A stretch of 64,000 nt of DNA from assembly GCA_963681505.1 (NCBI GenBank), contig OY811975.1, positions 457,501 to 521,500 on the forward strand. The letters run 5' to 3'. The notes under the pieces are model-generated. The model searched no databases, was not told the origin of the DNA, and saw nothing but the letters and a program-made list of their open reading frames with translations. Below are positions 3,062 through 45,508 of the stretch, piece after piece; position 1 is the first letter of the stretch; each line of letters begins with the position of its first letter. The DNA is from Eunapius fragilis. Lineage: Eukaryota > Porifera > Demospongiae > Spongillida > Spongillidae. A program made the position numbers and the translations under genes.

Positions 3062-3440
3062 AGGTGTCATGGTGAAGATGTGTGTGTTAGTACAGGTTAT
3101 GTGTGTTTCTTTTGTATTATGTGCGAATCTTTAGGATCATGTATACATATAAGAGCAGTGGACACCATATGCAGGCTAGTACAGGCATATCTCTTTGAAA
3201 TCTGCCTGGATATTAGCCTGTGGCAATCCACATAGCTATATCTTTGTAGTAGAACTTACAATTCCTAAACAAATCATCTCGCTCTTTGAGCTGCAGCATA
3301 TAACCTTACAGCAGATGCTACCTAAGTATGTTCACTTGCAAACTGCAGCTGTAAATCGATCACCTTGGCAAAATAATGATCAATTTCTCCATCCAAACCT
3401 GCCTACTATAATATACACACCATTGTTTGAACATTAATAA
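3062..3440. other. ALG10 3' flank shared between copies, no gene seen
   Basis: This stretch aligns by eye with the sequence after copies 2 (11394-11765) and 3 (57675-58035). Shared blocks include ATGTGCGAATCTTTAGGATC and CTTTGAAATCTGCCTGG. Homology stops at the TA where the outer foldback element begins (3441). No protein is recognisable. Confidence 0.6.
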
Positions 3441-3811
3441 TAACTAGCGTGTCCCGTGAAAAATCACGGGCTGATTCTTCGTCTCGCTATTCATTTGCCA
3501 GGTGAACAGTTGGTCTACCTCATAGCTCCTCTTTTTACTGTCTTACCCAATGTTGCACATATAATCTGCCACCTGTTCTAACATACGGTTACTACGCAAC
3601 CTCTATAACATGCTCAGATATGCCCGCGCAATACAAATATTACATTATATTATGTCAGGTAGTAACATGTTCCAAGGGCCACACCTCCCTGGTGAGACTG
3701 CTGGTCACCAAGTACAGCTGTGACCTCAATGCTCGTGATTCAAAAGGTGAAACACCCTTCACATGTGCTGGTCTAGGTGGTAGTGTGGAGTATGTGGAGC
3801 TATTGATCAAT

Positions 3812-6085
3812 GGGTCATTCTATATCGATTCAACACACATAAGTTTCATTTTTGGAAGCATTTTTGTGGATGAGTGCAGGCTATTACCCTGTGTATATTT
3901 ATGTATTGTGCTAACTTTTAAATATCAATTGTTCGTAAGTTATTAGGTGTGAAAAAGTTGACCACATATGTAAACTATGCTAATTATCTTTGCGAGCGTT
4001 ACAGCAGTAGCGATGGTTATTTTTCCATGCGTACAGAACATCATGACTATCACGCTGTTTAATAAAAAAAGGAACTTCATAATTGAGCACAACGGAAAAT
4101 ATGTTTTTCGAGCGTAATAGTTGTCACCATTTAAAAATACACACTTTTTTTTTGGTTTTTTTTTAAATTTTAATGAAAGGCTATCTGTTTGCTTGTTGTG
4201 TTTCCAATCGCAAGACGGAACGCCAAGCCGTTACTAAACTACATCGCATCGAAGCGCTCGTGTTTTAGTCTTAAAGAAACCCTTCTAATGTGTTAATTGT
4301 GCACTAAACAAACTTATAATTGGCCACACATAATGAATTTAATTACTTGATGTACAAAGAATATTCCTCTTTTCAATGACTGCAAACTAAACACGTCTGT
4401 GTCACCCTCTCCCTCATAGTCCACCATATCACCCTCTTCCCTCATGGTCCACCATGTCACCCTCCTCCCTCATGGTCCATCTGTGTCACCCTCTCCTTAG
4501 TGGACCATGAGGGAGAGGGTTTACATGGTGGACCATGAGGTAGAGGTGAGGAGGAGGGTGACATGGTAAACCACGTGGGAGGGGTGAGGGAGGAGGGTGA
4601 CAAGGTGGATCATAAGGGAGGAGTAAGGGAGGAGGGTGACATGATGGGCCATGAGGGAGGAGGGTGACATGGTGGGCCATGAGGGAGGAGGGTGACATGG
4701 TGGACCATGAGGGAGAGGGTGGCATGATGGACCATGAGGGAGGAGGGTGGCATATGGTGGACCATGAGGGAGAGGGTGACATGGTGGGCCATGAGGGAGA
4801 AGGGTGACATGGTGGACTATGAGGGAGAGGGTGACATGATGGACCATGAGGGTGGAGGGTGGCATGGTGGACCATGAGGGAGAGGAGAGTGACATGGTAG
4901 ACCATGTGGGAGGGAGGAGGGTGACAAGGTGGATCATAAGGGAGGGGTAAGGGAGGAGGGTGACATGGTGGGCCATGAGGGAGGAGGGTGACATGGTGGA
5001 CCATGAAGGGAGGAGGGTGACATGGTGGACTATGAGGGAGAGGGTGACATGATGGACCATGAGGGTGGAGGGTGACATGATGGACCATGAGGGAGGAGGG
5101 TGACATGGTGGACCATGAGAGAGAGGTGAGGAGGAGGGTGACATGGTAGACCATGTGGGAGGGTGAGGGAGGAGGGTGACAAGGTGGATCATAAGGGAGG
5201 GGTAAGGGAGGAGGGTGACATGGTGGGCCATGAGGGAGGAGGGTGACATGGTGGGCCATGAAGGAGGAGGGTGACATGGTGGACTATGATGTCACCCTCC
5301 TCCCTCATGGTCCATCGTGTCACCTCCCTCCCTCATGATCCACCACGTCACCCTCCTGTGCTGTGTAGCATGTGGAAGGTTGACATGATGGACCATGAGG
5401 GAGAAGGGTGGCATATGGTGGACCATGAGGGAGAGGGTGACATGGTGGACCATGAGGGAGGAGGGTGATATGGTGGACTATGAGGGAGAGGGTGACACAG
5501 ACGTGTTTAGTTTGCAGTCATTGAAAAGGGGAATATTCTTTGTACATCAAGTAATTAAATTCATTATGTGTGGCCAATTATAAGTTTGTTTAGTGCACAA
5601 TTAACACATTAGAAGGGTTTCTTTAAGACTAAAACACGAGCGCTTCGATGCGATGTAGTTTAGTAACGGCTTGGCGTTCCGTCTTGCGATTGGAAACACA
5701 ACAAGCAAACAGATAGCCTTTCATTAAAATTTAAAAAAAAACCAAAAAAAAAGTGTGTATTTTTAAATGGTGGCAATTATTACGCTCGAAAAGCATATTT
5801 TCCGTTGTGCTCAATTATGAAGTTCCTTTTTTTATTAAACAGCGTGATAGTCATGATGTTCTGTACGCATGGAAAAATAACCATCGCTACTGCTGTAACG
5901 CTCGCAAAGATAATTAGCATAGTTTACATATGTGGTCAACTTTTTCACACCTAATAACTTACGAACAATTGATATATAAAAGTTAGTATAATACATAAAT
6001 ATACACAGGGTAATAGCCTGCACTCATCCACAAAAATGCTTCCAAAAATGAAACTTATGTGTGTTGAATCGATATAGAATGACCC
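3812..6085. mobile_element. Inner foldback element with long arms and satellite core
   Basis: The termini GGGTCATTCTATATCG (3812) and CGATATAGAATGACCC (ending 6085) are inverted and flanked by CAAT at 3808-3811 and 6086-6089. The arms are nearly identical for roughly 590 bp (3812-4410 against 5495-6085). Between them is about 1.1 kb of tandem repeats. No transposase is visible, so it must be non-autonomous. Confidence 0.85.
4400..5500. repeat. 28-bp satellite core of the inner foldback
   Basis: Units resemble GGAGGAGGGTGACATGGTGG plus GCCATGAG, with many variants. Orientation flips near 4500 and again near 5290 and 5390, so the core is itself partly palindromic. Long open frames on either strand here are repeat artefacts. 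Confidence 0.85.
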
Positions 6086-6387: not shown

Positions 6388-7998
6388 CTATAGCACATCG
6401 TCATCACCATCACTATCAACATTGCTACTACCTTCATTGTCATCACTACCAACATTGCTACCACCTTCACTGCTATCACTACCAACATTGCTACCACCTT
6501 CACTGCTATCACTACCAACATTGCTACCACCTTCACTGCTATCACTACCAACATTGCTACCACCTTCACTGCCATTACTACCAACATTATTACCATAAGC
6601 ACTACTACCAAGATATGCATCAGTATCAGGACACCTATTGCCCCTCAGACTATTATTCTCTGAATCAGTTGCAGTTCTGGCACCACCCTGTAAGTCTTAG
6701 AAAATAAATCAAATGACCCACAAAAAGATACACAACAGAATACAACCTACTGGCTTTTTTCGTTTTAGTAATGCTAGGGATTGGTATTCTTGAATCAGTG
6801 CAGTATCTCTTTCTTTTATGGCCTGAAAAATACATGCCAAACACATGCAGTAATAATTTTTTTTTTAGAAATTAACAACAGATGACCTTGCTCATTATTT
6901 CATTATTTTATTAAAATGAGCAAGGTCATCTGTTGTCAATTATTCTATTCAAAATTAATTGATGCTAAAAATTTTTAACGACATGCACCTTAATTTACCG
7001 ATTATTTCATCAGCCTTCCTCTCAGCATCTGCCCTAGCCTTAGCTTGAGCTTCAACCTTAGCTTTATCCACCAAGAGCTGAAGATTCTCTCGCAGGTCTT
7101 GTATCTGCTGTTGCATACCCTCCATCTGCTGTTGCATACCCTCCATCTGCTGTTGCTGCAGTACAAAGGCTTTGGGGACAGCCATAAAATGTACTCCAAT
7201 GTCCTGTACATGTTGAGCCATCTGGTCACGTGGGGCCACGTGGGAACATCCCAAGGGGGTGTGGATACATGGGACTGGTTCCTTAGGACAGTCCATTTTG
7301 TGCGCATCAAGGCTTTGACGAGTAAGAGCGGGAGCACCGCACTGTAGAGGGCATGACACGGGAGCGTACGGACATATCTCGATGTGGGCGGGCATTCTAT
7401 TGAACGCTGTGGAGACTTGACACGATGCATGAGGACAGTGGGTGGGGCGAAGTCTGCAGTGGTATTTGAGGTGGTCAATGAGGTCATTGCGGCTCAATCG
7501 GACGTCGCACGTATTCTGCTCACCTCCATCTTTTCCTTCTGCTTTGGGCTTGGAGTTAGGACAGCTCTGGAGGCACACAAACTGTTTGTGTGTAGCCATC
7601 TCTCCCCGTGGAACGGGTGCCCCGCAACCCTCTGCAGGGCACGTGATGGGTTCCCAAGCACACTCGTTATCAAGATGGCCGTCCAATCGACCGCATGTTC
7701 CTTTCCACTTGCATTTATCATATACGCACACAACATCTAGAGCGGATACCTGTGCTGAAGCGAAGGGGCAAGGCAGGGGATCAGTTAGAAGTTTCCTGCA
7801 GACCGGACAGGCGGGATTTCCTCTGATGCTTTTGGTGAGGCAGCGGAGACAAAACAGGTGTCCAGATCGGCACGTGACGGGCGAGCGGCAAACTTCAAGG
7901 CATATGTGGCATTGGTAGCACTCGCTTTTTACTTGATTGCAGAATATGTTGGGGGGGAAGCCACCTCGTCTACTTCTCTCGTTCATGATCGATGACAT
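6388..7998 (-). CDS. TRAF-like RING / TRAF-zinc-finger protein without visible MATH domain
   Basis: Likely an E3 ubiquitin ligase or signalling adaptor of the TRAF type. The first exon (7998 to about 6999) encodes a RING finger near residues 28-72 (CYQCHICLEVC, GHLFCLRCL, CPVCRKLL). Several TRAF-type Cys/His fingers follow (for example CKWKGTCGRLDGHLDNEC, CPLQCGAPALTRQSL, CIHTPLGC). Then comes a glutamine-rich coiled coil with repeated MEGMQQQ and an Ala/Lys/Glu helix. Two further exons are likely: about 6822 to 6744 (KERDTALIQEYQSLALLKRK, coiled coil) and 6687 to 6388, a Gly/Ser/Asp-rich tail ending DSDGDDDVL with stop at 6390-6388. The last two exons share phase 0, but the GTAAAT donor of exon 1 at 6998 is phase 1, so that junction is unresolved. 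No MATH (TRAF-C) domain is seen. The start ATG at 7998 precedes the RING by about 27 residues. Confidence 0.75.
6398..6597 (-). repeat. 33-bp coding minisatellite in the TRAF-like tail
   Basis: Units of 33 bp encode GGSNVGSDSSE, about four near-identical copies with degenerate ones at both ends. The unit keeps the reading frame, so copy-number change would alter the acidic Ser/Gly tail length without breaking it. Confidence 0.75.
6877..6945. other. Perfect hairpin in the TRAF-like intron
   Basis: ACAACAGATGACCTTGCTCA and its exact complement are separated by an AT-rich loop of about 20 nt, giving a stem of about 22 bp. It lies between the first and second exons of the TRAF-like gene. It could be a tiny MITE or a small-RNA precursor; the sequence alone does not decide. 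Confidence 0.6.
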
Positions 7999-12367: not shown

Positions 12368-15156
12368 ATGGAAACCGACGCCCACACAAAACGTCGATTT
12401 GACCCCGCAAGTAATGATTTCTTGAAGCATATTTATTCAGCTGCACTACGAAGAGAGTCACCGAAATGATAAGAGATTATAAATCTCACTTTAGTAAAAT
12501 CAACGGGAAAACAGTTCTACACAATGCTTGTGTCAATGGCCACACCTCCCTGGTGAGACTGCTAGTCACCAAGTACAGCTGTGACCTCAATGCTCGTGAT
12601 AGAGATGGTGACACACCCTTCACATGTGCTGGTCTAGGTGGTAGTGTGGAGTGTGTGGAGGTATTGATCAATGAGTTTCACTGTGACATCAACACAAAAG
12701 GCTCCATTGGTAGAACCATACTGCATAATGCTTGTTCCAAGGGCCACACCTCCCAGGTGAGACTGCTGGTCACCAAGTACAGCTGTGACCTCAATGCTCG
12801 TGATAGAGATGGTGACACACCCTTCACATGTGCTGGTCTAGGTGGTAGTGTGGAGTGTGTGGAGCTATTGATCAATGAGTTTCACTGTGACATCAACACA
12901 AAAGGCTCCATTGGTAGAACCATACTGCATAAGGCTTGTGGCAAGGGCCACACCTCCCTGGTGAGACTGCTGGTCACCAAGTACAGCTGTGACCTCAATG
13001 CTCGTGATAGAGATGGTGGCACACCCTTCACATGTGCTGGTCTAGGTGGTAGTGTGGAGTGTGTGGAGCTATTGATCAATGAGTTTCACTGTGACATCAA
13101 CACAAAAAGCACCTATGGTAGAACCATACTGCATAAGGCTTGTTACAAGGGCCACACCTCCCTGGTGAGACTGCTGGTCACCAAGTACAGCTGTGACCTC
13201 AATGCTCGTGATAAAGATGGTGACACACCCTTCACATGTGCTGGTCTAGGTGGTAGTGTGGAGTGTGTGGAGCTATTGATCAATGAGTTTCACTGTGACA
13301 TCAACACAAAGGACTTCAGTGGTCAGACCATTTTGCATAATGCATACACCAAAGGACACATCAGTTTATTAAGATTATTAGTTGCCAAATATGGATGTGA
13401 CCTCACAGTATGTGAAGGATGTAAATGTGTGGCTTCAAAGGATGGCCTGAATATGATCAATAACTTGAAGAAAAGTGGGATTGGTAGGTCTGGGTCTGGG
13501 GAGGAGGTTGAGGTGCCTTTAATCCCATCACACCCTATGTTTTTACAGTGAGGAACTTTGAGTCCATCGCCATAACAACAATTGGTAAGTACCATCTCCA
13601 ACTGCAGCTGTCACTTGTGTCCACAAATACAACTCACTAAAGGGTGCATGACTTATTCTCATGTGTAGTTTATTTCTGACCTGTGAGATTGGAACGAGCT
13701 AATACTATTGGTTATTGTACACATAGTAGCTACATGTACTTAAGAGCCACACTATGCATGTACATGTGCTGTATATTTTGACTCTGGCAGTGCATGAGGT
13801 TTGTGATTATACTTACCACGACTGGTCCATTTGGTCAACACAATCCTCCCCTCTCCCCCCAGGACCAGATGACCTTGAAGGTGTGGACAGGGTCAGTAGC
13901 TCCATGGAGCAGACATGGTATGACTTTGGAGCCTTCATTGGTGTGAAGGTTTCCCACCTGGAGGACCTGAAGCGTATGCCTTCAGGTCAGATGAGCAGGA
14001 TCATGAGGTGGTGGATTGGTGGGGACACTGACAAGTTTGACTACTTCATGGAGCCAAGGTGGCACACATTGGTGAAGGCCATTGCCCATCCTGCTGGAGG
14101 GAACAGTGTCTCTGTTGCTGAAGAGATAGCAATGACTCACCAAGTCACTGAAGGTATCAGAACTTGTCATAACATTGGTGATAGCACCTAGCTAGTGGCT
14201 TGATATGTGTGTTACTTCATACATCTTATGGCAGTTTCTTTAAAAGAATATACACAGTTTTTTAATATGTATCACATCACTAAGATAGTATAACTGAAAT
14301 GTGTTATAGAGCCAAACATACAGATCGATGTGTCACTTGCATAGGACAGCATGATATTAAATATTAGATCAGTGACTCTCATATGGACCATTCCCTCACT
14401 GCTATCATTCCTGTACATTTGAATGTTCCATAGACATCAGCCCATGGTTGGAGAATGGTAGACCAGAGGTGGAAAATGGTAGACCAGAGGTGGAGAATGG
14501 TAGACCAGAGGTGGAGAATAGTACACCACAGGTGGAGAATGGTAGACCAGAGGTGGAGAATGGTAGACCAGAGGTGGAGAATGGTACACCACAGGTGGAG
14601 AATGGCAGACCGGAGGTGAAGAATGGTAGACCGGAGGTGAAGAATGGCAGACCAAAACTTAAGGATCTTCATTTACTACAGTTCTTCAACTGGCATGGCG
14701 TTGGTTTGGAGTTGGGCTTAGAAGACCTAAAACTGCGAATAATTGAACATAACCATCCTCGAGATCTGAATGGTGCAAAGGTTGAAATGCTGTACACATG
14801 GCTGGATCAAGACAGAGATGCTACATATGGGAAACTAGCCAAAGCTCTAGTAGCAGTGGGTGAAGAGCTCTGTGCCCGACAGTTAGCTGATAAGAAAGGT
14901 GAGTAGTATATAAGACAGCTCCCTTCAATGGAAATTGGTATGTCTTGGAATTTGGAACACATGATTTTCTACGTGTTTTCTGATTGTTATAAATTTGTAA
15001 TGCTTAGCATAATACTCTATGAATTATGCATGTTCAATTACACATTTCATTCTGGTGATAATATATATATTGAGTTCATGGCAGCAGAGGTAGAACGATT
15101 GAGGTCGTCAGCTGAATTTCTACTGATCGAGTTACAAATGGCTGAAATTGCTGCAA
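12368..15156 (+). CDS. Ankyrin / Death / Death-like protein (copy 2), 5' frameshift
   Basis: Exons 12368-13483, 13549-13584, 13863-14153, 14434-14898 and 15085-15156 join in phase 1. The ankyrin exon has nine repeats as 68-residue double units (GRTILHxACxxGHTSLVRLL then GDTPFTCAGLGG). Exon 3 is a Death-type domain (WYDFGAFIGVKVSHLEDLK, PRWHTLVKAI). Exon 4 carries a run of ENGRPEV 7-mers, then a second Death-like domain (GVGLELGLEDLKLRIIEHNH, TYGKLAKALV). Exon 5 is a short helix. Against the gene at 58622, about 10 nt are missing near 12449. The METDAHTK start therefore runs into TGA, and translation would have to begin at ATG 12466, losing about 33 residues before the first repeat. Any exons beyond 15156 are replaced by transposon DNA. 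Role by homology: an intracellular receptor or adaptor; the ligand is unknown. Confidence 0.8.
14448..14658 (+). repeat. 21-bp coding minisatellite (ENGRPEV linker), copy 2
   Basis: About ten units of GTGGAGAATGGTAGACCAGAG in frame, with AGTACACCACAG and AATGGTACACCACAG variants giving STPQ and GTPQ. It links the two Death-type domains. The kinase-bearing paralogue has about six units at 61163-61291. Confidence 0.9.
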
Positions 15157-21386: not shown

Positions 21387-21684
21387 TACGGTGGCCCTGG
21401 AGGTCGCGAGCGAACACTGTACACTTGTGCTTTTCACGTCTGCGGTTTTGTGGTTTAAACAAATAACAAAAGGCGGTTTGCGTGTCCGGACATAACGCAT
21501 GCTTACACAAAACATCGGACACAGAAACATCGGACGTTTAAAAAAATAACAAAAAGCGGTTTGCGTGTCCGGACATAACGCATGCTTACACAAAACATCG
21601 GACACAAAACATCGGACGTAAGACGTTTGATAACAATTCGCGTAAGACGTTTCATAACATTTTAAACACAAACTTTGATCGACA

Positions 21685-22958
<1,274 letters not shown>

Positions 22959-23214
22959 GTGTCCGATGTTTTGTGTAAGCATGCGTTATGTCCGGACACG
23001 CAAACCGCTTTTTGTTATTTGTTTAAACGTCCGATGTTTCTGTGTCCGATGTTTTGTGTAAGCATGCGTTATGTCCGGACACGCAAACCGCCTTTTGTTA
23101 TTTGTTTAAACCACAAAACCGCAGACGTGAAAAGCACAGGTGTACAGTGTTCGCTCGCGACCTCCAGGGCCACCGTACTTTCAGGTTCAGATTTCATAGT
23201 GGTAAACATCCGTG

Positions 23215-26200
23215 ATGGCTGCACACAATGACGAAGATGACGGTGATTGTGAACAAAGTACCTACGAAAGCAAAGTCGCCACCCACATATCCCTCGAGGA
23301 GCAGAAACTGAAGCAGCTGAACAAGGATCTGAATGCAGCAGTGTCTCAAGCAGAGAAAGAGAAAGCGTTTCGCGAGTGTCTTGTCAGCATTTCTGACCAG
23401 AAGACAAGCGAATTCTTACACAGTCCAAATGAAAAGTGTCATGAAAAGTGGGAAGCTTTCCGTAACCAGTTTTCTGTGATCCTGTCGTCTTTAGCGAAAA
23501 AGCATGGATGCATGCACATCATCGTGGAGGAGCTCGATAAGTCATGGGTAGACGAGATGCAGCTAGGCTCAGGGCTTCGAATGCAACCACTGGATGAAAT
23601 CATGTGTGCCAATTGCATCCCGACACTAACTGGGAATTGTGTCACTGCGTGTGAGAAGCGAGGGATGATGGCCTGTTCAGGGTGCCACCTGGTGAAATAT
23701 TGTTCCCAGACATGTCAGAAGAAGCATTGGCCAGTACATAAGATTGACTGCAAATCCAGGTATGCTGAGACGGACTGGCTGGAGGGCAGCATGTATGATA
23801 CAACTGCAGAGGATGCCAGTGGGGAGGAAATGTCCCAGATTGTGGATCGAAGATTCCATTCAAAGGCTATCCAGTTTCCATCGAGTGCTTCTAGCCTCCC
23901 AACACCATGCAGTGCATGCCTCGCTGAGAGTGGGGACCTGAGTGACATGGTGCATACAATCCTGAGTGTTCCAGATGGATACAAGGGTGAGATCACCCTG
24001 CATCTCAACCATCCATCATCTAGCATAGCTTTCTGCAATCTGCTGTCACTGCTAGCCATGGGCATTCTCGGAGAGTTGAGTTGTGACATGCTGATACAAT
24101 TGTGGTATTCAGTTGCGATGACTAGCGAACAAATGTTGAACTTCTTTAAAATGCTCAACAAGCTAGTGGAGGACTCTGAGAGAAAGGTGACTAAAGGTCC
24201 ATACTGTGCATCTTTGCCCAAACTGTCACAAGTCATGTTCACAGTTGACCTTGAGATGAAGCAATGGTTAGTGATATTGACTGAGTATACCTTTGAAAGA
24301 TCAAGAGACATTGTAAAGTGCATGGAAGATCGGAGTAAGCACTTGTTCAGCCCTCAAGGCAAACAATAGGCTGTTGAGATGCTCACCACACTGTCCCCTC
24401 ACCAGAGAGTCTCGTGGGACAACTTTGTGCAGCTGGGCATGTTGCTCCCTCTAGGAGCACTCAATACACATCACAATGTGATGAACCCATTCCTGTTTGA
24501 TGTTGATCATCACTGGAGGCCAGAACGACAGCTTGATCCTCTACAGTGCTGGTCGAGGGCTGAGACCATTGCTACAGGGGAGGAGTGTCGGGTACCCAGC
24601 AATGATATTTACGGTGCATTGTTCTTCCTTATTCGGAAAAAGCTCTCTGCATGCATCCAGAAGCTAAGCAAGCAGAGGTTTCACATCATTGTCACCTGCT
24701 GTGAGCCGAGTGCTCTCGTGCATCGACTTCAACAATCCAAGACAGCAATGCACTATATCTCAGGGGTGGACGCTACACAGCTGCAGTATACACATTCAGA
24801 TGATCGGGACCTCAAGGCCCTCAGTATTAGGGCTCTGAAGGAGATTATTCAGGGTGCAGGCCTATCATTAGAAGGATGCCTGGAGAAGAGTGATCTTGTG
24901 GCTCGTGCTGCCTTGATTCTCGGACGTGGTGCACCATCCAATGGTAAGGATTCCACTGTAGTAGACACAACATTGCCTCCCACACAACAACAACCTGATG
25001 AGGCAAGCGAGCAGAGAAGGTTCATAAAGGCTCGAGCAAACCTTGATCCTCCCGATATCCTTGCTATCTGCTATCTCGCGGAGTTTGGTGATTTGACATG
25101 GATGCAGAAAGGTGTGGAAATGTCGATTCCTAAATGTCTCGCCCTCTATGGCTGGCATCAACTGTCTTTGTTCAGTGACGTGCATGCACTGAGTGCCTTA
25201 TCACATCTGCAGCGAGCAAAAGACATGAAGAATGCCGAAGGGCTCCTTTTCTGGGGTTTGGCTATGGAGAGTGCATATGGAGACGCCACTGACACTCGCT
25301 CAGAAGCTTGGACCTGCTACCATGAGTCTGCATGCCTCGGAGATCATTCTGCCATGTTTAATGTTGCACATGTCTTGGCAGCTCGTGGAGATCACAAACA
25401 GGCAGTTGGATGGTGGAAAAAGGCGAAACAGCATGGGCCTTCGTTGTTTGAGCTGTATCGCTGTTACCATCATGGGCATGGCTGCACACAAGACGATCTG
25501 GAAGCGAGTAAGTACTTGCGGCAGGCTGCAGATGAAGGCTATGGCCCTGCATGTGCTACCTTGAGTGAGTGGTATGGGTCTGGCTGGGAGAATGTGCTTC
25601 GTAAGAACCCAGAGAAACAAGCACATTGGCACAAGCAGGCCACCATCTCATCAGAGAAGCATCCTCTACCTCTCTGTACACTGCGGAGCTTACTTGGAAC
25701 AAATGCGACTCCAGCCTGGTGGAAGTCCCTAAGAACAGTGGTGGAATTGATGGAACCATGTGATGGAGGAACCAAGTCTGAAGCCACATCAGGTGTTAAA
25801 GTAGATAATACATTAGACACATTGAAGTTCGCTAGTGAGGGAGCAGAGAAATTTATGATGCAAATGAGATCAACAAACTCTAATGGAGGTGGCATGGGTG
25901 ACTTCGGTTTGACTCCATTATATCATTCATTTCTTCTGAGAGCAGAGAGCTTGGCTCTAACATCAGATGAACGGCTGCAGCTGCAGGGCATCGTGCAGGA
26001 AATCACAGACGTTCTGACCAGCAGCAGAGTGATTGCCTCGGTGGAAGTATGTGGTTCATATGGGAAAGGCACTGCTGTGAGTGGTTGTGCTGACCTGGAC
26101 ATGGTGGCAGTGGCTGTGAAATGCTTTGAGAGTGATATGTACCTGTCTCTGCAGTGCCATGTAGCCACTCTACTCAAAGACAACCTCAAGGTGGATTTAC

Positions 26201-29200
26201 AGTATAAGCCACTGGCTATATCCTTCACATACAAGCTTGTGGAGATCGATGTGGTACTAGCTAGCCCCAACATTGAGCCCATTTCACAGTGTTTCCTTCC
26301 ACCACGTCCACGCTTCTTTCGTAGGCCCTCATTATCTGTTCGAGAGTGTGCCTTCCTTCGTGCACAGCCCCCTCTGTTTGGTGCTGTTGTGCGACTATTG
26401 AAAAAGTGGCGAGCAAGTGCAGAGAACTGGCCTCGTGGCTGCAAGCCGCGTTCCTATTTACTGGAACTCATTGCATTAGCAGCAGTTCAGAAAGTTGATG
26501 TTGTGCGGTTAACTGAAGAAACTGTCCGTGATGGCTTTGTCACTTCACTTGAGTTGCTGCTGCAAGTAATCAGTGGCAGTCTGAAGCTGTACTGGGTTGA
26601 TAACTACCCTGAATATAGCATCCAGTTTGAGAATCATGATGGGCCAATCATGATGGATCCCTTTGATCCCACCAACAACTTGGCTGGGCTACTTCAGATC
26701 CAGGATTGGCGTCCCCTGAGCCAGCTGGCTGAGCAGACCCTCATTGCAATAAGAGATCACAACCTCATGCAGAGAGACATCCATATTACACCAACCACTG
26801 AGCAAAGTGTGTCTGCTATCTCTCCTCAGTATAGGTTTTCATGCTTTGTTCTCAGGGCAGAGCAGTTAATGAGAGCTGGAGATCTGGAGGAAGCACTAGA
26901 TGCCCTGGCAGCTGCATCACATATTGACAGCTCAAACATAAAACTGCAAAGCATGTGGCATGAGTGCATCACACAACTGTGTGTGGAAGAATGTGAGGCA
27001 AAGCAATCGTCATTAACAGAAGCTGAGTTGCTTTTGAGATTGAAGGATGCTGTTGCAGATTCAGATCTAGTGACAGGGTTTGATAAGAAAAACCGAGAAG
27101 CAAAACCACCTGATTTCATCTCCAAGGACATGGACGCATGTGAGGAGATGGACATCCCATTCTTGGCTTACATGCTTTCACGTAATGAGGCAGATAGTGA
27201 TTCCTCAGAAGAGGAAGACATCCCACGGATGGGGAAGCTGTTCCCTGAGGCCAGTGAAGGCGAGCTCTACATTCCTATCACCAGTCTAGTTTGGAAATCA
27301 GCTTTGAAGGAGGGAATGTACGTTATATGGTTGATGTTGAAGCAACGGATCGACAAGATGCCTTCAAAAGAGCAGCGAGATATAAACACGAGGGCAAGTC
27401 TGCAGTCTGTGTTGGCACATCATGCATTTCATGTGGGTAAGGATGTTATTGGCCTTGATCGTATGACAGCTTCCATCCTGGTAACAGATCGAACTGTATT
27501 GCACCGTGAGTTACATGCCCTAGCCCTCACTGCTGCTAAACGTGTGATAGGAGAAGCTTCTTCAGAGATGCAGGTCTTACCTCACTGTGGCCTCAGTCTG
27601 CAAGTGGCAGCCAGCATTGTCCATGTGCACTTACATGTGATGAGGAAGGCATGGGCCAAGGCTTTTGAAGCTCTGAAGCCTCTATTGGAACGAGATGACT
27701 TGTGGAATCGAGCTGATGTTTGTCATTTTATTGGGAGTAGCTTGTTGTGGACACGTGATTATGAAGCAGCCATGTTTTGGTTTGAGCAAGGGATCACAGC
27801 AGACCCCACCTTTCGTATGAATCTCTTTGCACTCGGGTATGTAATGATTCGCGCAAAGTCAACAAATGAAGCCGACCCAGAGCGAAAGTCACATATCATG
27901 AAGACTGCAGAGAAGCACTTGTGGCAGTACATCAAGCAAGGGGTCCCAGAAGACTTGAAACGTAGTGATGCATTGTACGAGCTGGTCCTTGTGGCTATGC
28001 TTTCATCAAACTTTCAGGAGGCTCATGACAGATTAGAGATGGCTATTGAGGCAGATATCAGGCGTACTCAGATCTACAATGAACCCAGCATCAATAGTGC
28101 TAAGCAGTGTCTGCTGGTGATTGCAACTGAAATGGAGCTGTTTGAAAAGATGACGGGAGCCATGCATAAAGCTTCTGAGCAAGTGTCAGTGACGCCTCCA
28201 TATGCACTCTCCATAGCTAAAGACAATCCTGAGATGAATCTATTTTATGACACTCTGCGAACAAAACTGTGTGGAAGCCCACTCCTGATTACTGTTGATC
28301 GTGCGACACAACTGAAGAATTTGTCGAGAGTACGCCTCCATAAAATGAAGGATTACTTCTCTCAGAAGATGACCACATCATTCTGGAGTGGCGACAAATT
28401 GGAGTCTGAATATGCTGCTAACATTCTAAAGACTCTGACAAAACATGAAGACAGTAATGACAGTGTTGACAGGGAAGATAAAAATAAGCAAGCGGAGAAG
28501 CAAAAGGACATGCAGCAGATTGTGGTGGACTGTGAAGGGTCTGGGGAATTCCTTTCATTGGGGGAAGCACTCAGGAGTGGTTGTGTTGCCACTGACACAG
28601 TGATCACAATGAAAGGAGGCACGTACAAGGAGAACATAGGCCTAATTCACATTGTGCATGAACACCTCACCATACAAGCAGCGAGCAGTAAAGAGAAGGT
28701 TGTTATCCAGACATATGGTGGGATCCGAGTGAAGGCCAATCATGTGACCCTGTCAGGGCTATCGGTGGACCTTCTGAGTCCCAAAGGTCATGACGGTGTA
28801 GAAGAATTGTATGGTCATGCCATCCATGTACAAGCAGGCACAGCCGTGGTGCTGGAAAACTGCAGTGCTACTAGTGCAACAGGTGCAGCAATCTGTGTAG
28901 GGGACAAGGTGTGCTCTGGTAAGGTCGAGGTTACCATGGTGATGTGCAATGCAAGATCTAGTGTTGGCAATGCTATCATTTGCATGGGTTCACACACCCA
29001 GTTGCAGTTACAGCAGTGCAATGCCAGTCACTCCAAGAGTGGGCTGGAGGTGCGAATGGGTGCCACAGCTCATGTGAGAAGCTCACACTTTTCTTGCAAT
29101 GAGAATTTTGGTGTGTTTGTGTGGCAACATGCAAGTGCAGAGACAGTTATTGGACCAGATAATGTCATCCAGGACAATCAAGGCTCAGGAGTCATACTGG

Positions 29201-29655
29201 CAGCATGGGGCATCCTCTTTCATCGTAACAAGGTCAGTGGGAATAAGTTGTATGGGGTCACTGTTGAGACTGGTTTCAAAGATGTTGAGGTCAAGGTAGA
29301 AGACTGTGAACTCTCTCAGAATGGCTTGGGTGGAGTCCAATTCTGTGGGGAAACATGTGGTGTCATCTCTGGTTGTTGCATAGAGAAGAACAATCAGTGT
29401 GGCATCATGGTGGGCATGGGTGTGGAGAAGTTGAGCATTATAGGCAACCGAATCCAAGGCAATTACTCACCGCAAGAAACTGGCATAGTGATGTTAGGCA
29501 GAGCAAAAGTGGCAGATGATAACGAGTTCAGCAACAATCAGATGACTCTTGAAAAGGCAGTAGAGTTTATCAAGCCAAAAACAGAAAAAGCAAAAGAGTG
29601 CGAACACCATCAAAGAAGGCATGCAGGTAAGTTGCGCCATGACAATTTAATGTAA
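23215..29655 (+). CDS. MYND / Sel1 / OAS-like nucleotidyltransferase / TPR / beta-helix giant protein
   Basis: Probable cytosolic nucleotide-polymerising sensor. The start ATG 23215 lies in a GTGATGG context. The N-terminus has a coiled coil, then a MYND zinc finger near residues 130-180 (CANC, CSGC, YCSQTCQKKHWPVHKIDC). Sel1-like repeats span about 25204-25640 (FWGLAMESAYG, SKYLRQAADEGYGPA). An OAS-type fold follows at about 25930-26760: GSYGKGTAVSG, Asp-Leu-Asp at 26092-26100, a third Asp in VEIDVV at 26248, and the OAS1-C-like KPRSYLLELIALAA. All three catalytic acids are present. TPR-like helices occupy 27600-27900, and a right-handed parallel beta-helix of Asn/Gly/Cys-rich coils 28507-29560. 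An in-frame TAG at 24367 splits the frame unless a predicted 93-nt intron is removed; with removal the product is about 2,115 residues. A GTAAGT donor near 29625 may lead to a last exon. OAS proteins are known in sponges; I know no family with this architecture. Confidence 0.8.
24313..24405 (+). other. Candidate 93-nt intron carrying the only in-frame stop
   Basis: GTAAAG at 24313 follows an ATT codon in phase 0. A pyrimidine-rich CTGTCCCCTCACCAG ends at 24405, and the next codons (RVSWDNFVQLG) continue the same frame. The length is a multiple of three. Its removal deletes TAG 24367-24369; its retention ends the protein after the MYND part. The alternatives are stop-codon readthrough, a nonsense allele, or two separate genes. 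Confidence 0.5.
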
Positions 29656-30230
29656 ACAAACCATCAGCCATACTTCTACAGTAAGCAGCAACTTTTTAAC
29701 CCTGAAAGAAAAAAAGTTGTCCCATTGAACGTAATAAATAAGTTATTATAAATTCAGTGCTCAGTTTAAAACAATGGGAACTGCATAAAAAGGGCTTAGT
29801 CAAATACTAAATCACAAATTTCTGAAAACATGGAAAAACGTATTTCGAATCCCTGTTAAGTATTGCCATTTTCTTTTTGGAAGGGCAGTTATGTAACATC
29901 TTTAATTAGTGCACTTATGATCACCACAACAGGTTTCAGCATAGATGACATCATTCCCAGTATCCAAGCAACACAGAGTACATCAGCTGTCAATGGTAAG
30001 ATAACCAACTACCAGAATACACTACTAGTAACTGTTATTATATGTGTGCTTATAGTTACCATGCCAACTGGTCCAGTGCTCATGGTATGCAGGATTAGAT
30101 ATCCCTGACATCATTGTGACTGAACTGCCTTAAAAGGGGAGGGGGGTGGTGGTGGGGGGGGGGGGGGGCTATGGATGGGTGGGTGGTGGGGGTGGCAGAA
30201 GAGGTAGATACCTAGCTAGGGACTAGGTGG
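29656..30230. other. 3' flank of the OAS-like gene
   Basis: AATAAA at 29733-29738 is a plausible polyadenylation signal. A small exon-like piece (acceptor TTTCAG near 29939, donor GTAAG near 29997) would, if spliced from the 29625 donor, add one residue and then a stop. GT-rich and G-run DNA follows to 30190. No other gene is seen. Confidence 0.4.
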
Positions 30231-36630: not shown

Positions 36631-39600
36631 GGGGCACATGGTGCTATGCTGGTCATCCCTTGCTGTGGTACCCCATGGACCACATGGTGCTATGCTGGTC
36701 ATCCCTTGTTGTGGTACCCCATGGACCACATGGTGCTATGCTGCTCATCCCTTGCTGTGGTACCCCATGGACCACATGGTGCTATGCTGGTCATCCCTTG
36801 CTGTAGTACCCCATGGACCACATGGTGCTATGCTGGTCATCCCTTGCTGTGGCACCCCATGGACCACATGGTGCTATGCTGGTCATCCCTTGCTGTGGCA
36901 CCCCATGGACCACATGGTGCTATGCTGGTCATCCCTTGCTGTGGTACCCCATGGACCACATGGTGCTATGCTCCTCATCCCTTGCTGTGGTACCCCATGG
37001 ACCACATGGTGCTATGCTGGTCATCCATTGCTGTGGTACCCCATGGACCACATGGTGCTATGCTGGTCATCCCTTGCTGTGGCACCCCATGGACCACATG
37101 GTGCTATGCTACTCATCCCTTGCTGTGGTACCCCATGGACCACATGGTGCTATGCTGGTCATCCCTTGCTGTGGTACCCCATGGACCACATGGTGCTATG
37201 CTGGTCATCCCTTGCTATGGCACCCCATGGACCACATGGTGCTATGCTGGTCATCCCTTGCTGTGGCACCCCATGGACCACATGGTGCTATGCTGGTCAT
37301 CCCTTGCTGTGGCACCCCATGGACCACATGGTGCTATGCTGGTCATCCCTTGCTGTGGCACCCCATGGACCACATGGTGCTATGCTGGTCATCCCTTGCT
37401 GTGGTACCCCATGGACCACATGGTGCTATGCTCCTCATCCCTTGCTGTGGTACCCCATGGACCACATGGTGCTATGCTGGTCATCCCTTGCTGTAGTACC
37501 CCATGGACCACATGGTGCTATGCTACTCATCCCTTGCTGTGGTACCCCATGGACCACATGGTGCTATGCTGGTCATCCCTTGCTGTAGTACCCCATGGAC
37601 CACATGGTGTTATGCTGGTCATCCCTTGCTGTGGTACCCCATGGGTCACATGGTGCTATGCTGGTCATCCCTTGGTGTGGTACCCCATGGACCACATGGT
37701 GCTATGCTGCTCATCTCTTGCTGTGGCACCCCATGGACCACACGGTGCTATGCTACTCATCCCTTGCTGTGGTACCCCATGGACCACATGGTGCTATGCT
37801 GGTCATCCCTTGCTGTGGCACCCCATGGACCACATGGTGCTATGCTACTCATCCCTTGCTGTGGTACCCCATGGACCACATGGTGCTATGCTGGTCATCC
37901 CTTGGTGTGGTACCCCATGGACCACATGGTGCTATGCTGGTCATCCCTTGCTGTAGTACCCCATGGACCACATGGTGCTATGCTGTGGTCATCCCTTGCT
38001 GTGGCACCCCATGGACCACATGGTGCTATGCTGGTCATCCCTTGGTGTGGTACCCCATGGACCACATGGTGCTATGCTGGTCATCCCTTGGTGTGGTACC
38101 CCATGGACCACATGGTGCTATGCTGGTCATCCCTTGCTGTGGTACCCCATGGACCACATGGTGCTATGCTGTGGTCATCCCTTGCTGTGGCACCCCATGG
38201 ACCACATGGTGCTATGCTGGTCATCCCTTGGTGTGGTACCCCATGGACCACATGGTGCTATGCTGGTCATCCCTTGGTGTGGTACCCCATGGACCACATG
38301 GTGCTATGCTGGTCATCCCTTGCTGTGGCACCCCATGGACCACATGGTGCTATGCTGGTCATCCCTTGCTGTGGCACCCCATGGACCACATGGTGCTATG
38401 CTGGTCATCCCTTGCTGTGGTACCCCATGGACCACATGATGCTATGCTGCTCATCCCTTGCTGTGGTACCCCATGGACCACATGGTGCTATGCTGGTCAT
38501 CCCTTGCTGTGGTACCCCATGGACCACATGGTGCTATGCTGGTCATCCCTTGTTGTGGTAACCCATGGACCACATGGTGCTATGCTGGTCATCCCTTGGT
38601 GTGGTACCCCATGGGTCACATGGTGCTATGCTTCTCATCCCTTGCTGTGGTACCCCATGGACCACATGGTGCTATGCTACTCATCCCTTGCTGTGGTACC
38701 CCATGGACCACATAGTGCTATGCTGGTCATCCCTTGCTGTGGTACCCCATGGACCACATGGTGCTATGCTGGTCATCCCTTGCTGTGGTACCCCATGGAC
38801 CACATGGTGCTATGCTGCTCATCCCTTGTTGTGTTACCCCATGGACCACATGGTGCTATGCTGGTCATCCCTTGGTGTGGTACCCCATGGACCACATGGT
38901 GCTATGCTGGTCATCCCTTGCTGTGGTACCCCATGGACCACATGGTGCTATGCTGGTCATCCCTTGCTGTGGTACCCCATGGACCACATGGTGCTATGCT
39001 GGTCATCCCTTGGTGTGGTACCCCATGGGTCACATGGTGCTATGCTTCTCATCCCTTGCTGTGGTACCCCATGGACCACATGGTGCTATGCTGGTCATCC
39101 CTTGGTGTGGTACCCCATGGGTCACATGGTGCTATGCTTCTCATCCCTTGCTGTGGTACCCCATGGACCACATGGTGCTATGCTACTCATCCCTTGCTGT
39201 GGTACCCCATGGACCACATGGTGCTATGCTACTCATCCCTTGCTGTGGTACCCCATGGACCACATGGTGATATGCTGGTCATCCCTTGCTGTAGTACCCC
39301 ATGGACCACATGGTGCTATGCTGGTCATCCCTTGCTGTGGCACCCCATGGACCACATGGTGCTATGCTGGTCATCCCTTGCTGTGGTACCCCATGGACCA
39401 CATGGTGTTATGCTGGTCATCCCTTGCTGTGGTACCCCATGGACCACATGGTGCTATGCTGGTCATCCCTTGCTGTGGCACCCCATGGACCACATGGTGC
39501 TATGCTGTTCATCCCTTGCTGTGGTACCCCATGGGTCACATGGTGCTATGCTGGTCATCCCTTGCTGTGGCACCCCATGGACCACATGGTGCTATGCTGC

Positions 39601-40203
39601 TCATCCCTTGCTGTGGCACCCCATGGACCACACGGTGCTATGCTACTCATCCCTTGCTGTGGTACCCCATGGACCACATGGTGCTATGCTGGTCATCCCT
39701 TGCTGTGGCACCCCATGGACCACATGGTGCTATGCTACTCATCCCTTGCTGTGGTACCCCATGGACCACATGGTGCTATGCTGGTCATCCCTTGCTGTGG
39801 CACCCCATGGACCACATGGTGCTATGCTACTCATCCCTTGCTGTGGTACCCCATGGACCACATGGTACTATGCTGGTCATCCCTTGCTGTGGCACCCCAT
39901 GGACCACATGGTGCTATGCTGGTCATCCCTTGCTGTAGTACCCCATGGACCACATGGTGCTATGCTGGTCATCCCTTGCTGTGGTACCCCATGGACCACA
40001 TGGTGCTATGCTGCTCATCCCTTGCTGTGGTACCCCATGGACCACATGGTGCTATGCTGCTCATCCCTTGCTGTGGTACCCCATGGACCACATGGTGCTA
40101 TGCTGGTCATCCCTTGCTGTGGTACCCCATGGACCACATGGTGCTATGCTGCTCATCCCTTGCTGTGGTACCCCATGGACCACATGGTGCTATGCTGCTC
40201 ATC
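36631..40203. repeat. 46-bp satellite, left array (about 78 copies)
   Basis: The unit is CATGGTGCTATGCTGGTCAT plus CCCTTGCTGTGGTACCCCAT plus GGACCA. Variants cluster at two sites: GCTGG/GCTGC/GCTAC/GCTCC before TCATCCC, and TGGTACC/TGGCACC/TAGTACC. A few units carry an extra GT (for example near 37981 and 38170). Because 46 is not a multiple of three and the unit lacks stops on this strand, all three forward frames are open for kilobases. Confidence 0.97.
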
Positions 40204-42439
40204 CCCTATAAAAAATTCTTGCAACGGCTTGCCAAGTCTTAGCAAGTCTTAGCAAGACGTACCAAGTCTTAGCAAGACCTTGTTAAGTCTTGTCAAGACT
40301 ATTTCTATTAATAGTGACGCAATAATCAAAACTAATAAAATAAGCATGCACGTGGTGGAAGTTGGAGTGTTATAGCAGGATAGATATATATTGTTTACCT
40401 CTGCAGTGCTGATAGGACAAGGTGTCAACTGAAGAAAAAAGAAAAAGGAATCCTACAAAGAAGGTATTACATTGACCCTGAACAGTAAGCGCATGTGTAT
40501 ATTCTAATTAAATCGCATGTGGCTTGAATTGTGCGCTGTACGACCTTTAAGGGATAAACATGGTTGCGGCCGCTCTGTACATGCCACGTTTGTAGCCAGA
40601 AACTCAAGGACTACAGTTATAATGTTTTGCGCCATAATGTAGCTAGGTCGTGACGCGTTAACCGCAACAGAAATTAACTCGGCAGCTATTTTTTAATATG
40701 GTGGTATAAAGAGATATATATAATTTCTGGTATGGTTGAACGCAGTGCGTGGATAACTTTAAAGCCAAACGATCGACTTGTATGTGAACTGTTGATATCT
40801 GAACTCGACGTCCATATTTTCATTTGCGCGTACTACAGGTGCAATGTAATGACCGCGATATAGAAGCTAGTACAGACTCGTTTAAAGGTGGGGAGGGGGG
40901 GGGGGGGGGGATAGGTAGAGGAGGCTCTACCTATATTTTTAGGTTGATAAAGTTTGGGGAGGAGGGGGAACCACGACCCCGTGCTTCCTACTCCACTTGC
41001 TCAAACGTATTATGTATGACTATAGTCTTTTTTTGTGTTAAGGTATGGGAGCTAATTAAAAGTCACATGTGTTCATGAGATCAATGGAAAGTTCAATTTG
41101 CACCCTTTCAAGGTAACTATATTTTGTACTTATGTTTATGTACAGGTGAGATTTTCACAACTTTATACGAAGTAAGTGGTACAATTCATCAATTTTTAAA
41201 AATGCTCATCCTTCGACCATTAGAGACGGAAGAAAGCCAGTCAGAATCAGCACCACTGGTATAACATTTGCATTATTTGTTTAAAGTGTGATAACAATGA
41301 AGATAAGTGTGCCAATTAAGGTTTGCTAGGTACTCTTTTTGTGTCTTTATATGCAGGATTTCTTTCAGGTCAAGGACAGTATAGTTTACAGCCAATTGCA
41401 ACCCAAACTTGTACATGGTCAGTTGCTATCAGCTGTATGTAATAAAATGTGTAGCAACTCTGTAGGGATTGCCAGCCAAGAATCCATCATTGTACATATT
41501 TGGCTTGCAGTTAATGGATTTCTATCAATGTTCAACTGTCCACTTCCATTCCTGGCACAAAAAGTGAGAGGGCAAATTGGACCAGTTATACTTGTATTAT
41601 ATTTTGTTCTCAACAATAGGAACAGCCCAAGTAAATGTGACATGTACACATGCAGAGTATTTTAATTTTTAATATGAAATGTGTGATATCAGTTCGTTAC
41701 ATCAACACCCTCCGTATCAATCCAGGAAGCAAGACCTGAAATTCTTGAGCAAACACACATAGTATGTTGAATTTTAATTTTGCATAGTGTGTTTCATTGA
41801 ACATATATGCAGCTGTATAATGTATAGGTGAATGGTTATGCTGTTACCAGCAAAGAGTATATTTTGACTGGATCTCTTTTTTACTTAAAGAGGAATTGGC
41901 AAGGTCTTTTTTTTTTCACCAACAAAAGTGAAAGATTGGCTTTGGATCAAACCTAAGTTGCCTAAGTGATACGTAAGCTACATTGAGGCATACTCATTTC
42001 ACTGTTGTAACATTTTTCTTCATTCAGAATTGATCAAGAATTAATATATCGACAGTGAATGGGAAATCAAAGATTTTGTACAGAAAGCAAATCCAAAGTG
42101 TAGGGACACTAAGTTATAGTTCAAGTGTATGAGTATGCTAATTTATACATGTATACTATTATATATTTAACCTTGCCAAGTCATACACAATCTTGTCAAA
42201 TCTTGATAAGCCTTGTCAAGACCCATCTTGGAATAACTTGACACTTCAGGCCAAATCTTGTCACTTCTGTCCATATTTCTTGAAATCTCTTAGCAAGTCT
42301 TGCTTGTAGTCTTGACAAGTCTTGGTAAGTCTTGACAAGTCTTATGAAAACATGAAGCAAGTTTTAACAAGACTTGCCAAGTCTTACTTTAAATTTCTTG
42401 GCAAGACTTGGCAAGTCTTGCCACTTTTTTTTTATAGGG
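40204..42439. mobile_element. 2.2-kb insertion splitting the 46-bp satellite
   Basis: The ends CCCTATAAAAAA (40204) and TTTTTTATAGGG (ending 42439) are inverted. ATC flanks both sides (40201-40203, 42440-42442), and removing the insert with one ATC restores the satellite unit. Subterminal CAAGTCTTG / CAAGACTTG words are packed at both ends (40215-40300, 42165-42425), as expected for transposase-binding repeats. A 3-bp duplication fits CACTA or Harbinger-type elements. A plus-strand stretch near 41355-41640 (SVGIASQESIIVHIWLAVNG) is open but unrecognised. A G-run lies at about 40890-40909. Confidence 0.8.
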
Positions 42440-45400
42440 ATCCCTTGGTGTGGTACCCCATGGACCACATGGTGCTATGCTGGTCATCCCTTGCTGTGGT
42501 ACCCCATGGACCACATGGTGCTATGCTGGTCATCCCTTGCTGTGGCACCCCATGGACCACATGGTGCTATGCTGGTCATCCCTTGCTGTGGTACCCCATG
42601 GACCACATGGTGCTATGCTGGTCATCCCTTGCTGTGGTACCCCATGGACCACATGGTGCTATGCTGCTCATCCCTTGCTGTGGTACCCCATGGACCACAT
42701 GGTGCTATGCTGGTCATCCCTTGCTGTGGCACCCCATGGACCACATGGTGCTATGCTGGTCATCCCTTGCTGTGGTACCCCATGGACCACATGGTGCTAT
42801 GCTGGTCATCCCTTGCTGTGGCACCCCATGGACCACATGGTGCTATGCTGGTCATCCCTTGCTGTGGTACCCCATGGACCACATGGTGCTATGCTCCTCA
42901 TCCCTTGCTGTGGTACCCCATGGACCACATGGTGCTATGCTGGTCATCCATTGCTGTGGTACCCCATGGACCACATGGTGCTATGCTGGTCATCCCTTGC
43001 TGTGGCACCCCATGGACCACATGGTGCTATGCTACTCATCCCTTGCTGTGGTACCCCATGGACCACATGGTGCTATGCTGGTCATCCCTTGCTGTGGTAC
43101 CCCATGGACCACATGGTGCTATGCTGGTCATCCCTTGGTGTGGTACCCCATGGGTCACATGGTGCTATGCTACTCATCCCTTGCTGTGGTACCCCATGGA
43201 CCACATGGTGCTATGCTACTCATCCCTTGCTGTGGTACCCCATGGACCACATGGTGCTATGCTGGTCATCCCTTGCTGTAGTACCCCATGGACCACATGG
43301 TGCTATGCTGGTCATCCCTTGCTGTGGTACCCCATGGACCACATGGTGTTATGCTGGTCATCCATTGCTGTGGTACCCCATGGGTCACATGGTGCTATGC
43401 TGGTCATCCCTTGCTGTGGCACCCCATGGACCACATGGTGCTATGCTGCTCATCCCTTGCTGTGGCACCCCATGGACCACACGGTGCTATGCTACTCATC
43501 CCTTGCTGTGGTACCCCATGGACCACATGGTGTTATGCTGGTCATCCATTGCTGTGGTACCCCATGGACCACATGGTGCTATGCTGGTCATCCCTTGCTG
43601 TGGTACCCCATGGACCACATGGTGTTATGCTGGTCATCCCTTGCTGTGGTACCCCATGGACCACATGGTGCTATGCTGGTCATCCATTGCTGTGTTACCC
43701 CATGGACCACATGGTGCTATGCTGGTCATCCCTTGCTGTGGTACCCCATGGACCACATGGTGCTATGCTGGTCATCCCTTGCTGTGGCACCCCATGGACC
43801 ACATGGTGCTATGCTACTCATCCCTTGCTGTGGTACCCCATGGACCACATGGTGCTATGCTGGTCATCCCTTGCTGTGGTACCCCATGGACCACATGGTG
43901 CTATGCTGGTCATCCCTTGGTGTGGTACCCCATGGACCACATGGTGCTATGCTACTCATCCCTTGCTGTAGTACCCCATGGACCACATGGTGCTATGCTG
44001 TGGTCATCCCTTGCTGTGGCACCCCATGGACCACATGGTGCTATGCTGGTCATCCCTTGCTGTGGCACCCCATGGACCACATGGTGCTATGCTGGTCATC
44101 CCTTGCTGTGGCACCCCATGGACCACATGGTGCTATGCTACTCATCCCTTGCTGTGGTACCCCATGGACCACATGGTGCTATGCTGGTCATCCCTTGTGT
44201 GGTACCCCATGGACCACATGGTGCTATGCTGGTCATCCCTTGCTGTGGTACCCCATGGACCACATGGTGCTATGCTCCTCATCCCTTGCTGTGGTACCCC
44301 ATGGACCACATGGTGCTATGCTGGTCATCCATTGCTGTGGTACCCCATGGACCACATGGTGCTATGCTGGTCATCCCTTGCTGTGGCACCCCATGGACCA
44401 CATGGTGCTATGCTACTCATTCCTTGCTGTGGTACCCCATGGACCACATGGTGCTATGCTGGTCATCCCTTGCTGTGGTACCCCATGGACCACATGGTGC
44501 TATGCTGGTCATCCCTTGCTGTGGTACCCCATGGACCACATGGTGCTATGCTGTTCATCCATTGCTGTGGTACCCCATGGACCACATGGTGCTATGCTGC
44601 TCATCCCTTGCTGTGGTACCCCATGGACCACATGGTGCTATGCTGGTCATCCCTTGGTGTGGTACCCCATGGGTCACATGGTGCTATGCTACTCATCCCT
44701 TGCTGTGGTACCCCATGGACCACATGGTGCTATGCTACTCATCCCTTGCTGTGGTACCCCATGGACCACATGGTGCTATGCTGGTCATCCCTTGCTGTAG
44801 TACCCCATGGACCACATGGTGCTATGCTGCTCATCCCTTGCTGTGGTACCCCATGGGTCACATGGTGCTATGCTGGTCATCCCTTGCTGTGGCACCCCAT
44901 GGACCACATGGTGCTATGCTGCTCATCCCTTGCTGTGGCACCCCATGGACCACACGGTGCTATGCTGGTCATCCCTTGCTGTGGTACCCCATGGACCACA
45001 TGGTGCTATGCTGGTCATCCCTTGCTGTGGCACCCCATGGACCACATGGTGCTATGCTACTCATCCCTTGCTGTGGTACCCCATGGACCACATGGTGCTA
45101 TGCTGGTCATCCCTTGCTGTGGCACCCCATGGACCACATGGTGCTATGCTGGTCATCCCTTGCTGTGGCACCCCATGGACCACATGGTGCTATGCTGGTC
45201 ATCCCTTGCTGTGGCACCCCATGGACCACATGGTGCTATGCTGGTCATCCCTTGCTGTGGTACCCCATGGACCACATGGTGCTATGCTGGTCATCCATTG
45301 CTGTGGTACCCCATGGACCACATGGTGCTATGCTGGTCATCCCTTGCTGTGGCACCCCATGGACCACATGGTGCTATGCTACTCATCCCTTGCTGTGGTA

Positions 45401-45508
45401 CCCCATGGACCACATGGTGCTATGCTGGTCATCCCTTGCTGTGGTACCCCATGGACCACATGGTGCTATGCTGCTCATCCCTTGCTGTGGTACCCCATGG
45501 ACCACATC
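42440..45508. repeat. 46-bp satellite, right array (about 66 copies)
   Basis: Same unit and variants as the left array. A distinctive order of variants (CTCC, then TCCATTGC, then TGGCACC, then CTAC) occurs near 36970-37120, 42890-43040 and 44270-44420, so multi-unit blocks have been copied within and between the arrays. Confidence 0.97.

Follow-up and report, generated by a model that had tools for sequence, protein, structure and literature searches.

Does a freshwater sponge carry a new type of nucleotide second-messenger sensor, built by joining recognition and scaffolding modules to an OAS core? The question is raised by positions 23215 to 29655 of a 64,000-nucleotide stretch of the Eunapius fragilis genome (contig OY811975.1, positions 457,501 to 521,500, forward strand; hereafter the window, in whose numbering positions are given). 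A first-pass annotation, made from the letters alone, had read this locus as one long frame of about 2,100 residues encoding such a fusion. The window copy was found in this study to be a broken member of a multicopy family, in which the order of the parts is kept as far as they are present and the relatedness is plain. Intact members have about 2,430 residues in the order MYND, DUF4470, SAP-like, Sel1, nucleotidyltransferase/OAS1_C, TPR, beta-helix, MYND, MYND, and lie mostly in clustered arrays. We consider it reasonably probable, from what the sequences suggest, that the window copy is the disrupted form of a gene whose intact relatives, a family in freshwater sponges, are CD-NTases of the OAS superfamily, probably making 2',5'-linked oligonucleotides under the control of their solenoid and beta-helix parts.

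The single frame that had been proposed is refuted by an in-frame TAG at 24367-24369, between the ATG at 23215 with which the frame starts and the TAA at 29653-29655 with which it ends. Conservation was read from an alignment of 49 rows, comprising the window, 21 loci of the same genome (own loci) and 27 proteins from databases. Ten of these proteins duplicate own loci exactly, so that the sequences in question count twice. The parts of the window copy are as follows.

23215..24369, plus strand: open reading frame A (ORF A), with N-terminal tail, MYND finger and DUF4470; 384 codons, starting with ATG and closed by the in-frame TAG
23605..23757, plus strand: MYND zinc finger 1; zf-MYND 1.3e-8 (23647-23751 in the genome scan)
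23896..24117, plus strand: partial DUF4470, profile positions 18-96 of 97; Pfam 3e-7
24367..24369, plus strand: in-frame TAG; tyrosine in 45 other rows and histidine in one (P0018)
24379..29655, plus strand: ORF B, from the SAP-like stretch to the beta-helix, ending at TAA; 1,758 aa
24808..24906, plus strand: SAP-like stretch (ARMET_C / RNF34-like); ARMET_C 0.0017 and RNF34L-like 0.04, both below the curated cut-off
25183..25650, plus strand: Sel1/TPR solenoid on the N-terminal side of the enzyme core; profile and PDB matches
25942..26349, plus strand: nucleotidyltransferase (CD-NTase/OAS) catalytic domain with the GSYGKGTAVSGCADLD motif; D codons at 26092, 26098 and 26248
26350..26742, plus strand: OAS1_C domain; 1.7e-10 in Pfam, 8.8e-10 in the genome scan
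26848..27813, plus strand: TPR-like helical region; TPR_2 5.3e-8, TPR_14 0.00046
28510..29574, plus strand: right-handed parallel beta-helix; Beta_helix 9.7e-17
29653..29658, plus strand: end of ORF B and of the family homology; in intact relatives a further stretch of about 290 residues follows, with another two MYND fingers

The domain content that the first-pass annotation had listed was largely confirmed. The MYND finger was borne out by its profile match, and its ten C/H positions are conserved, depending on the position, in 39 to 46 of the 46 rows that cover them. The Sel1-like repeats were matched by Sel1-type PDB chains (best 8.1e-13) and by Pfam Sel1 at 1.7e-5, though the latter is below the family's curated cut-off, and both the TPR-like helices and the C-terminal beta-helix were recovered by the profiles given above; NosD also matched ORF B (1.5e-7, Pfam). 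The OAS-type assignment was upheld by OAS1_C (PF10421; 41.2 bits, above the cut-off of 19.9) and by PDB matches to OAS2 (2.2e-8) and OAS1 (4.1e-7 to 7.1e-7). The GS motif is in the window together with all three active-site acids, which lie where they had been placed (DLD at 26092-26100, D at 26248), and with KPRSYLLEL. That a sponge has an OAS-type core fused to MYND, Sel1, TPR and beta-helix modules is supported. DUF4470, the SAP-like stretch, the loss at the 3' end and the multicopy family had not been noticed.

The family comprises at least 26 loci in the genome, merged from 30 rows of a search with the ORF B protein, a lower bound because 27 of 40 candidates were scored. Seventeen lie on contig C12, at intervals of 16-46 kb between neighbours with a single wider gap of 321 kb, and six on C3; C5 (with the window copy), C11 and C22 hold one locus each. 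The first-pass annotation had named a lack of OAS or MYND matches, or domains belonging to separate genes, as results that would refute a fusion; neither is seen at the level of the genome, where in 13 of the 26 loci all parts share one uninterrupted frame, running from stop to stop over 2,441-2,542 codons. The other 13 are shorter, or have stops, frame breaks or lost ends. Three MYND stretches each were found in the intact own locus L011 and in P0014, a database protein from Ephydatia muelleri. ORF B is matched over its whole length, at 75-79% identity, by the full-length rows of the family, which puts a chance origin of its 1,758 codons far out of reach. At E <= 0.001 the genome scan with OAS1_C returned 24 matches. 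Among the 28 obtained at E <= 10, 25 fall in this giant family and the other three have E values of 0.2, 1.2 and 1.9; a conventional OAS with small exons could escape such a scan.

The window copy does not fall with the arrays in a midpoint-rooted FastTree tree, which was built from 39 rows (without the ten duplicates) over 1,699 columns. Its companions there are P0013 and P0029, with a local support of 0.986, and of 0.855 for the pair. These two proteins (2,539 and 2,190 aa) carry MYND and DUF4470 and are not among the own loci, and the window is given as their nearest (76.7% and 71.5% identity). The only relatives with a species name are the E. muelleri members P0014 and P0022. Three protein searches for relatives yielded 40 of 6,925, 39 of 7,997 and 8 of 7,994 scored candidates, none of them less than 66% identical to the query; these searches need shared five-residue words and could miss remote OASs, for instance from marine sponges. 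No relative was confirmed in bacterial and viral contigs (40 and 7 pattern matches). A mobile-element origin was considered and rejected: the window and the dispersed copies share little outside the coding region, no element search having been made, and close tandem pairs share flanks. Two short arrays of an 83-base unit stand just upstream of the OAS gene (21453-21619 and 22958-23111, about 1.3 kb apart); by eye they have opposite orientation, and they could be mobile-element ends.

The first two of the three active-site acids are present in 48 of the 49 rows and the third in all 49, the exception being the 5'-truncated frame L030. A profile of 11 family cores matched OAS2 (7.4e-16) and OAS1 (1.4e-10) in the PDB, with GS...DxD in register with both (GSFGKGTAVSGCADLDLV over GSSGKGTTLRGRSDADLV). 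The PADLOC oligonucleotide-cyclase profile matched residues 923-1176 of L011 at 1.3e-10 and the window at 6e-9, and the NCBIfam profile CBASS_cyclase_a (NF041116) matched L011 at 4.5e-11, its 42.4 bits being far below the cut-off of 200. The catalytic core is under strong purifying selection: omega (dN/dS, from pooled pairwise counts over 12 own copies, nine for the C-terminal MYNDs) is 0.28 for the nucleotidyltransferase and 0.27 for OAS1_C. It is 0.36 in the beta-helix and 0.39 in the C-terminal MYNDs, and the TPR and DUF4470 regions (both 0.45), MYND 1 (0.47), the linker (0.56) and the N-terminal tail (0.61) are looser. In sliding windows omega ranges from 0.17, reached in DUF4470 and in OAS1_C, to 0.93.

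The window copy itself carries two separate lesions. An amino acid stands in the column of the TAG in all 46 other rows that extend over it. Homology with 11 family loci (BLASTN) begins at 23221 at the earliest and ends at 29658 at the latest, and the C-terminal stretch of about 290 residues, with the two MYND fingers of the relatives, is missing. Split by the TAG and lacking MYND 2 and 3, the copy does not have the complete family domain order in a single frame. The damage looks recent, because there are no frameshifts and omega on the window branch (0.45; dN 0.065, dS 0.144) resembles that on the two intact branches L011 (0.48) and L024 (0.47); before the TAG the values are 0.50, 0.44 and 0.60, respectively. 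Such a likeness means either that the lesions are recent or that ORF B is still in use. Judged by its sequence, the window copy is most likely out of service, as a pseudogene that probably lost its function a short time ago or, at most, as the source of a truncated protein.

It seems rather unlikely that the window copy still works, with ORF B read from an internal start, the TAG spliced out or polymorphic, and the last two MYND fingers dispensable. ORF B has no stop in 1,758 codons, its window-branch omega of 0.43 is not above that of the intact branches (0.49 and 0.45), and this lack of relaxed constraint weighs against loss of function, leaving room for a working truncated protein. A stop-free frame would also result if the 75 bases 24335-24409 (GT...AG) were skipped, but all 46 other rows have an amino acid at the place of the TAG and need no such intron. 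Two lesions in one copy, and the MYND and DUF4470 carried by its nearest relatives P0013 and P0029, likewise argue against a working ORF B. The database protein P0001 (1,742 aa) was not counted as transcript evidence, because it has an apparent GTG start such as a bacterial-style gene caller would presumably place. It is highly improbable that an intact gene has been given the TAG and its 3' end by faulty assembly: only a single assembly was examined, but a QV of 60.4 is given for the primary assembly in the excerpted Eunapius fragilis odEunFrag1.1 genome note, and the 3' change is a loss of homology that involves more than one base.

For the intact members, we suggest that they are active enzymes joining nucleotides, most likely through 2',5' links as in other sponge OASs. 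The Sel1/TPR and beta-helix modules would hold the enzyme in check or switch it on, the MYND fingers would dock partner proteins, and the product would act through a receptor other than RNase L. The beta-helix gave a confident predicted model with likeness to alginate epimerases and lyases. A bolder extension, which we offer tentatively and think unlikely as it stands, is that these are giant OAS-type receptors in an amplified repertoire, which detect surface sugars or proteins of microbes or algae through their beta-helix and solenoids and in response start the synthesis of 2',5'-linked messengers that act through a receptor other than RNase L; this would aid the distinction of food, symbionts and pathogens.

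Several observations weigh against a regulated, catalytically active sensor. The catalytic half alone scores 5-8 bits against OAS1, which is not significant, the weight of the score lying in OAS1_C; NTP_transf_2 stayed below significance in all profile scans of the window and L011, and SMODS reached 0.03. An AlphaFold2 model of the OAS core (window and 10 close paralogues) had a pLDDT of 37.8 and a pTM of 0.28 and was not used. Omega exceeds 1 in no segment, so there is no sign of the arms race that would be expected to mark a pathogen sensor. The constraint on the core is equalled in the SAP-like stretch (0.27), in Sel1 (0.29) and in part of DUF4470 (0.17). In E. muelleri, an Oas1a-like gene with this domain list, described in 2021, was lower, not higher, in alga-bearing sponges (PMC7882143; this and the other papers cited by PMC number are represented here by excerpts of their text).

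The first-pass annotation had pointed to activation by double-stranded RNA (dsRNA), and OAS1_C and OAS profile matches are what dsRNA-activated 2-5A sensors of the vertebrate type would show, but we regard such sensors as improbable here. In the aligned segment (OAS1 FLKQRPTKLKSLIRLVKHW, window FLRAQPPLFGAVVRLLKKW), TKLKS has become PLFGA; three of the six K/R are kept and three are replaced, and the F, G, A and V standing there are fixed in all 49 rows. Which OAS1 residues touch RNA is presumed here, and the comparison is therefore weak evidence against dsRNA activation. The sole KEN-domain locus found in the genome, present as two exon rows, has beside it a kinase exon which we take to resemble IRE1. 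In the excerpts, sponge OASs are described as acting without dsRNA and making 2-5A and 3-5A, and RNase L and interferon genes were not found in the four sponge species searched (PMC6307210). Marine sponges yield 2',5'-linked products from several nucleoside triphosphates, the role of which is called not known (PMC2852836).

The intact enzymes might instead be constitutive or regulatory OASs whose solenoid and beta-helix parts scaffold protein complexes and sense nothing. Both the dsRNA independence of sponge OASs (PMC6307210) and the role called not known (PMC2852836) are consistent with such enzymes, as is the finding that no segment has an omega above 1. To us this explanation is somewhat unlikely. 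Pointing the other way, the family has been amplified in clusters to at least 26 loci, many of which are broken. Such amplification is the usual turnover of defence and recognition genes and less that of housekeeping enzymes. The reading that we prefer, of OAS-type enzymes under solenoid and beta-helix control, matters because what OAS does in sponges, in four species of which no RNase L or interferon genes were found (PMC6307210), is an open question. If the pattern of 25 in 28 OAS1_C matches holds, OAS function in these sponges is to be sought in the giant family, which offers the beta-helix as a handle for a ligand and MYND for a partner; since one expression change with algal symbiosis has been published, the matter is accessible to experiment in a laboratory sponge.

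DUF4470 was matched 33 times in the genome, eight times away from the family loci. One such protein, L039 (G000:C1:19948600-19953400, 864-4355), is a 1,163-aa single frame that shares an N-terminal DUF4470 and two C-terminal MYND fingers with the family but has no OAS, Sel1 or beta-helix matches; L040 (1,008 aa) has DUF4470 only, and the DUF4470 locus L042 was left out of the comparison. A DUF4470-MYND protein of the L039 type was considered as a possible progenitor, but its significant BLASTP similarity to the N-terminal part of the window copy is essentially confined to the MYND fingers and the residues directly behind them. A further MYND match (G000:C16:363918-364025) falls in an uninterrupted 2,549-aa frame that is not among the OAS1_C loci.

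Elsewhere in the window, a minisatellite of 8.9 kb at 36635-45507, built from about 193 copies of a 46-base unit (76% matches), is the probable cause of the long open frames that overlap in that region. Ankyrin-repeat frames at 12466-13551 and 58607-60223 consist of 204-base units (68 codons) with 94% and 90% matches. On the minus strand, 6955-7998 holds a 347-aa TRAF-like frame with TRAF-type zinc fingers (1.7e-17) and a RING match (3.7e-5, below the cut-off).

Among known systems, the OAS superfamily of CD-NTases (OAS1-3 and sponge OASs) shares OAS1_C and the GS...DxD...D triad with the family. It differs in that the family core sits inside a multidomain protein of about 2,430 aa and has three of the six K/R of the OAS1 segment replaced. 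A freshwater-sponge OAS was reportedly cloned from Lubomirskia baicalensis in 2008. OAS is treated as an ancient eukaryotic superfamily in PMC10732462, in the main text of which neither MYND nor Ephydatia appears. The CBASS CD-NTases (PADLOC Cyclase, NCBIfam NF041116) match over the same roughly 250 residues, whereas the family has OAS1_C, is eukaryotic and reaches 42.4 bits against a cut-off of 200. The cGAS-like receptors with ankyrin, TPR or death domains, expanded in coral, an early-branching animal, share the combination of a nucleotidyltransferase with interaction repeats, but they are of the Mab-21 type and the family is of the OAS type (PMC9980059). Mab-21 was not among the Pfam matches of the window reading frames (E up to 0.05) or of L011 (E up to 1); STING and Mab-21 gave no match in the genome, but the controls were silent too, so that absence is not established. 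The alginate C5-epimerases AlgE4 and AlgE6 and the PL6 lyase Pedsa0632 resemble the predicted family beta-helix in structure at 12-16% identity, a likeness of fold that by itself gives no function. VIA-align took a second look at Foldseek's own matches; no FBXO11-type chain was among the structural matches listed, which is uninformative.

The closest counterpart is the E. muelleri Oas1a-like gene of PMC7882143, from another freshwater sponge, which shares OAS1, nucleotidyltransferase, TPR, three MYND fingers, and pectinesterase-like and parallel beta-helix regions; two E. muelleri members of the family, P0014 and P0022, are in the tree. With this architecture in print since 2021, the "new type" of the first-pass annotation is too strong. 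The excerpted account treats it as one gene and mentions no family, copy number, DUF4470 or SAP-like part, and in open-licence PMC papers no description was found of the family, of how many copies it has or of how it evolved. What is new here is the copy number, the constraint on the core, the DUF4470 and SAP-like parts, the beta-helix model and the damage to the window copy.

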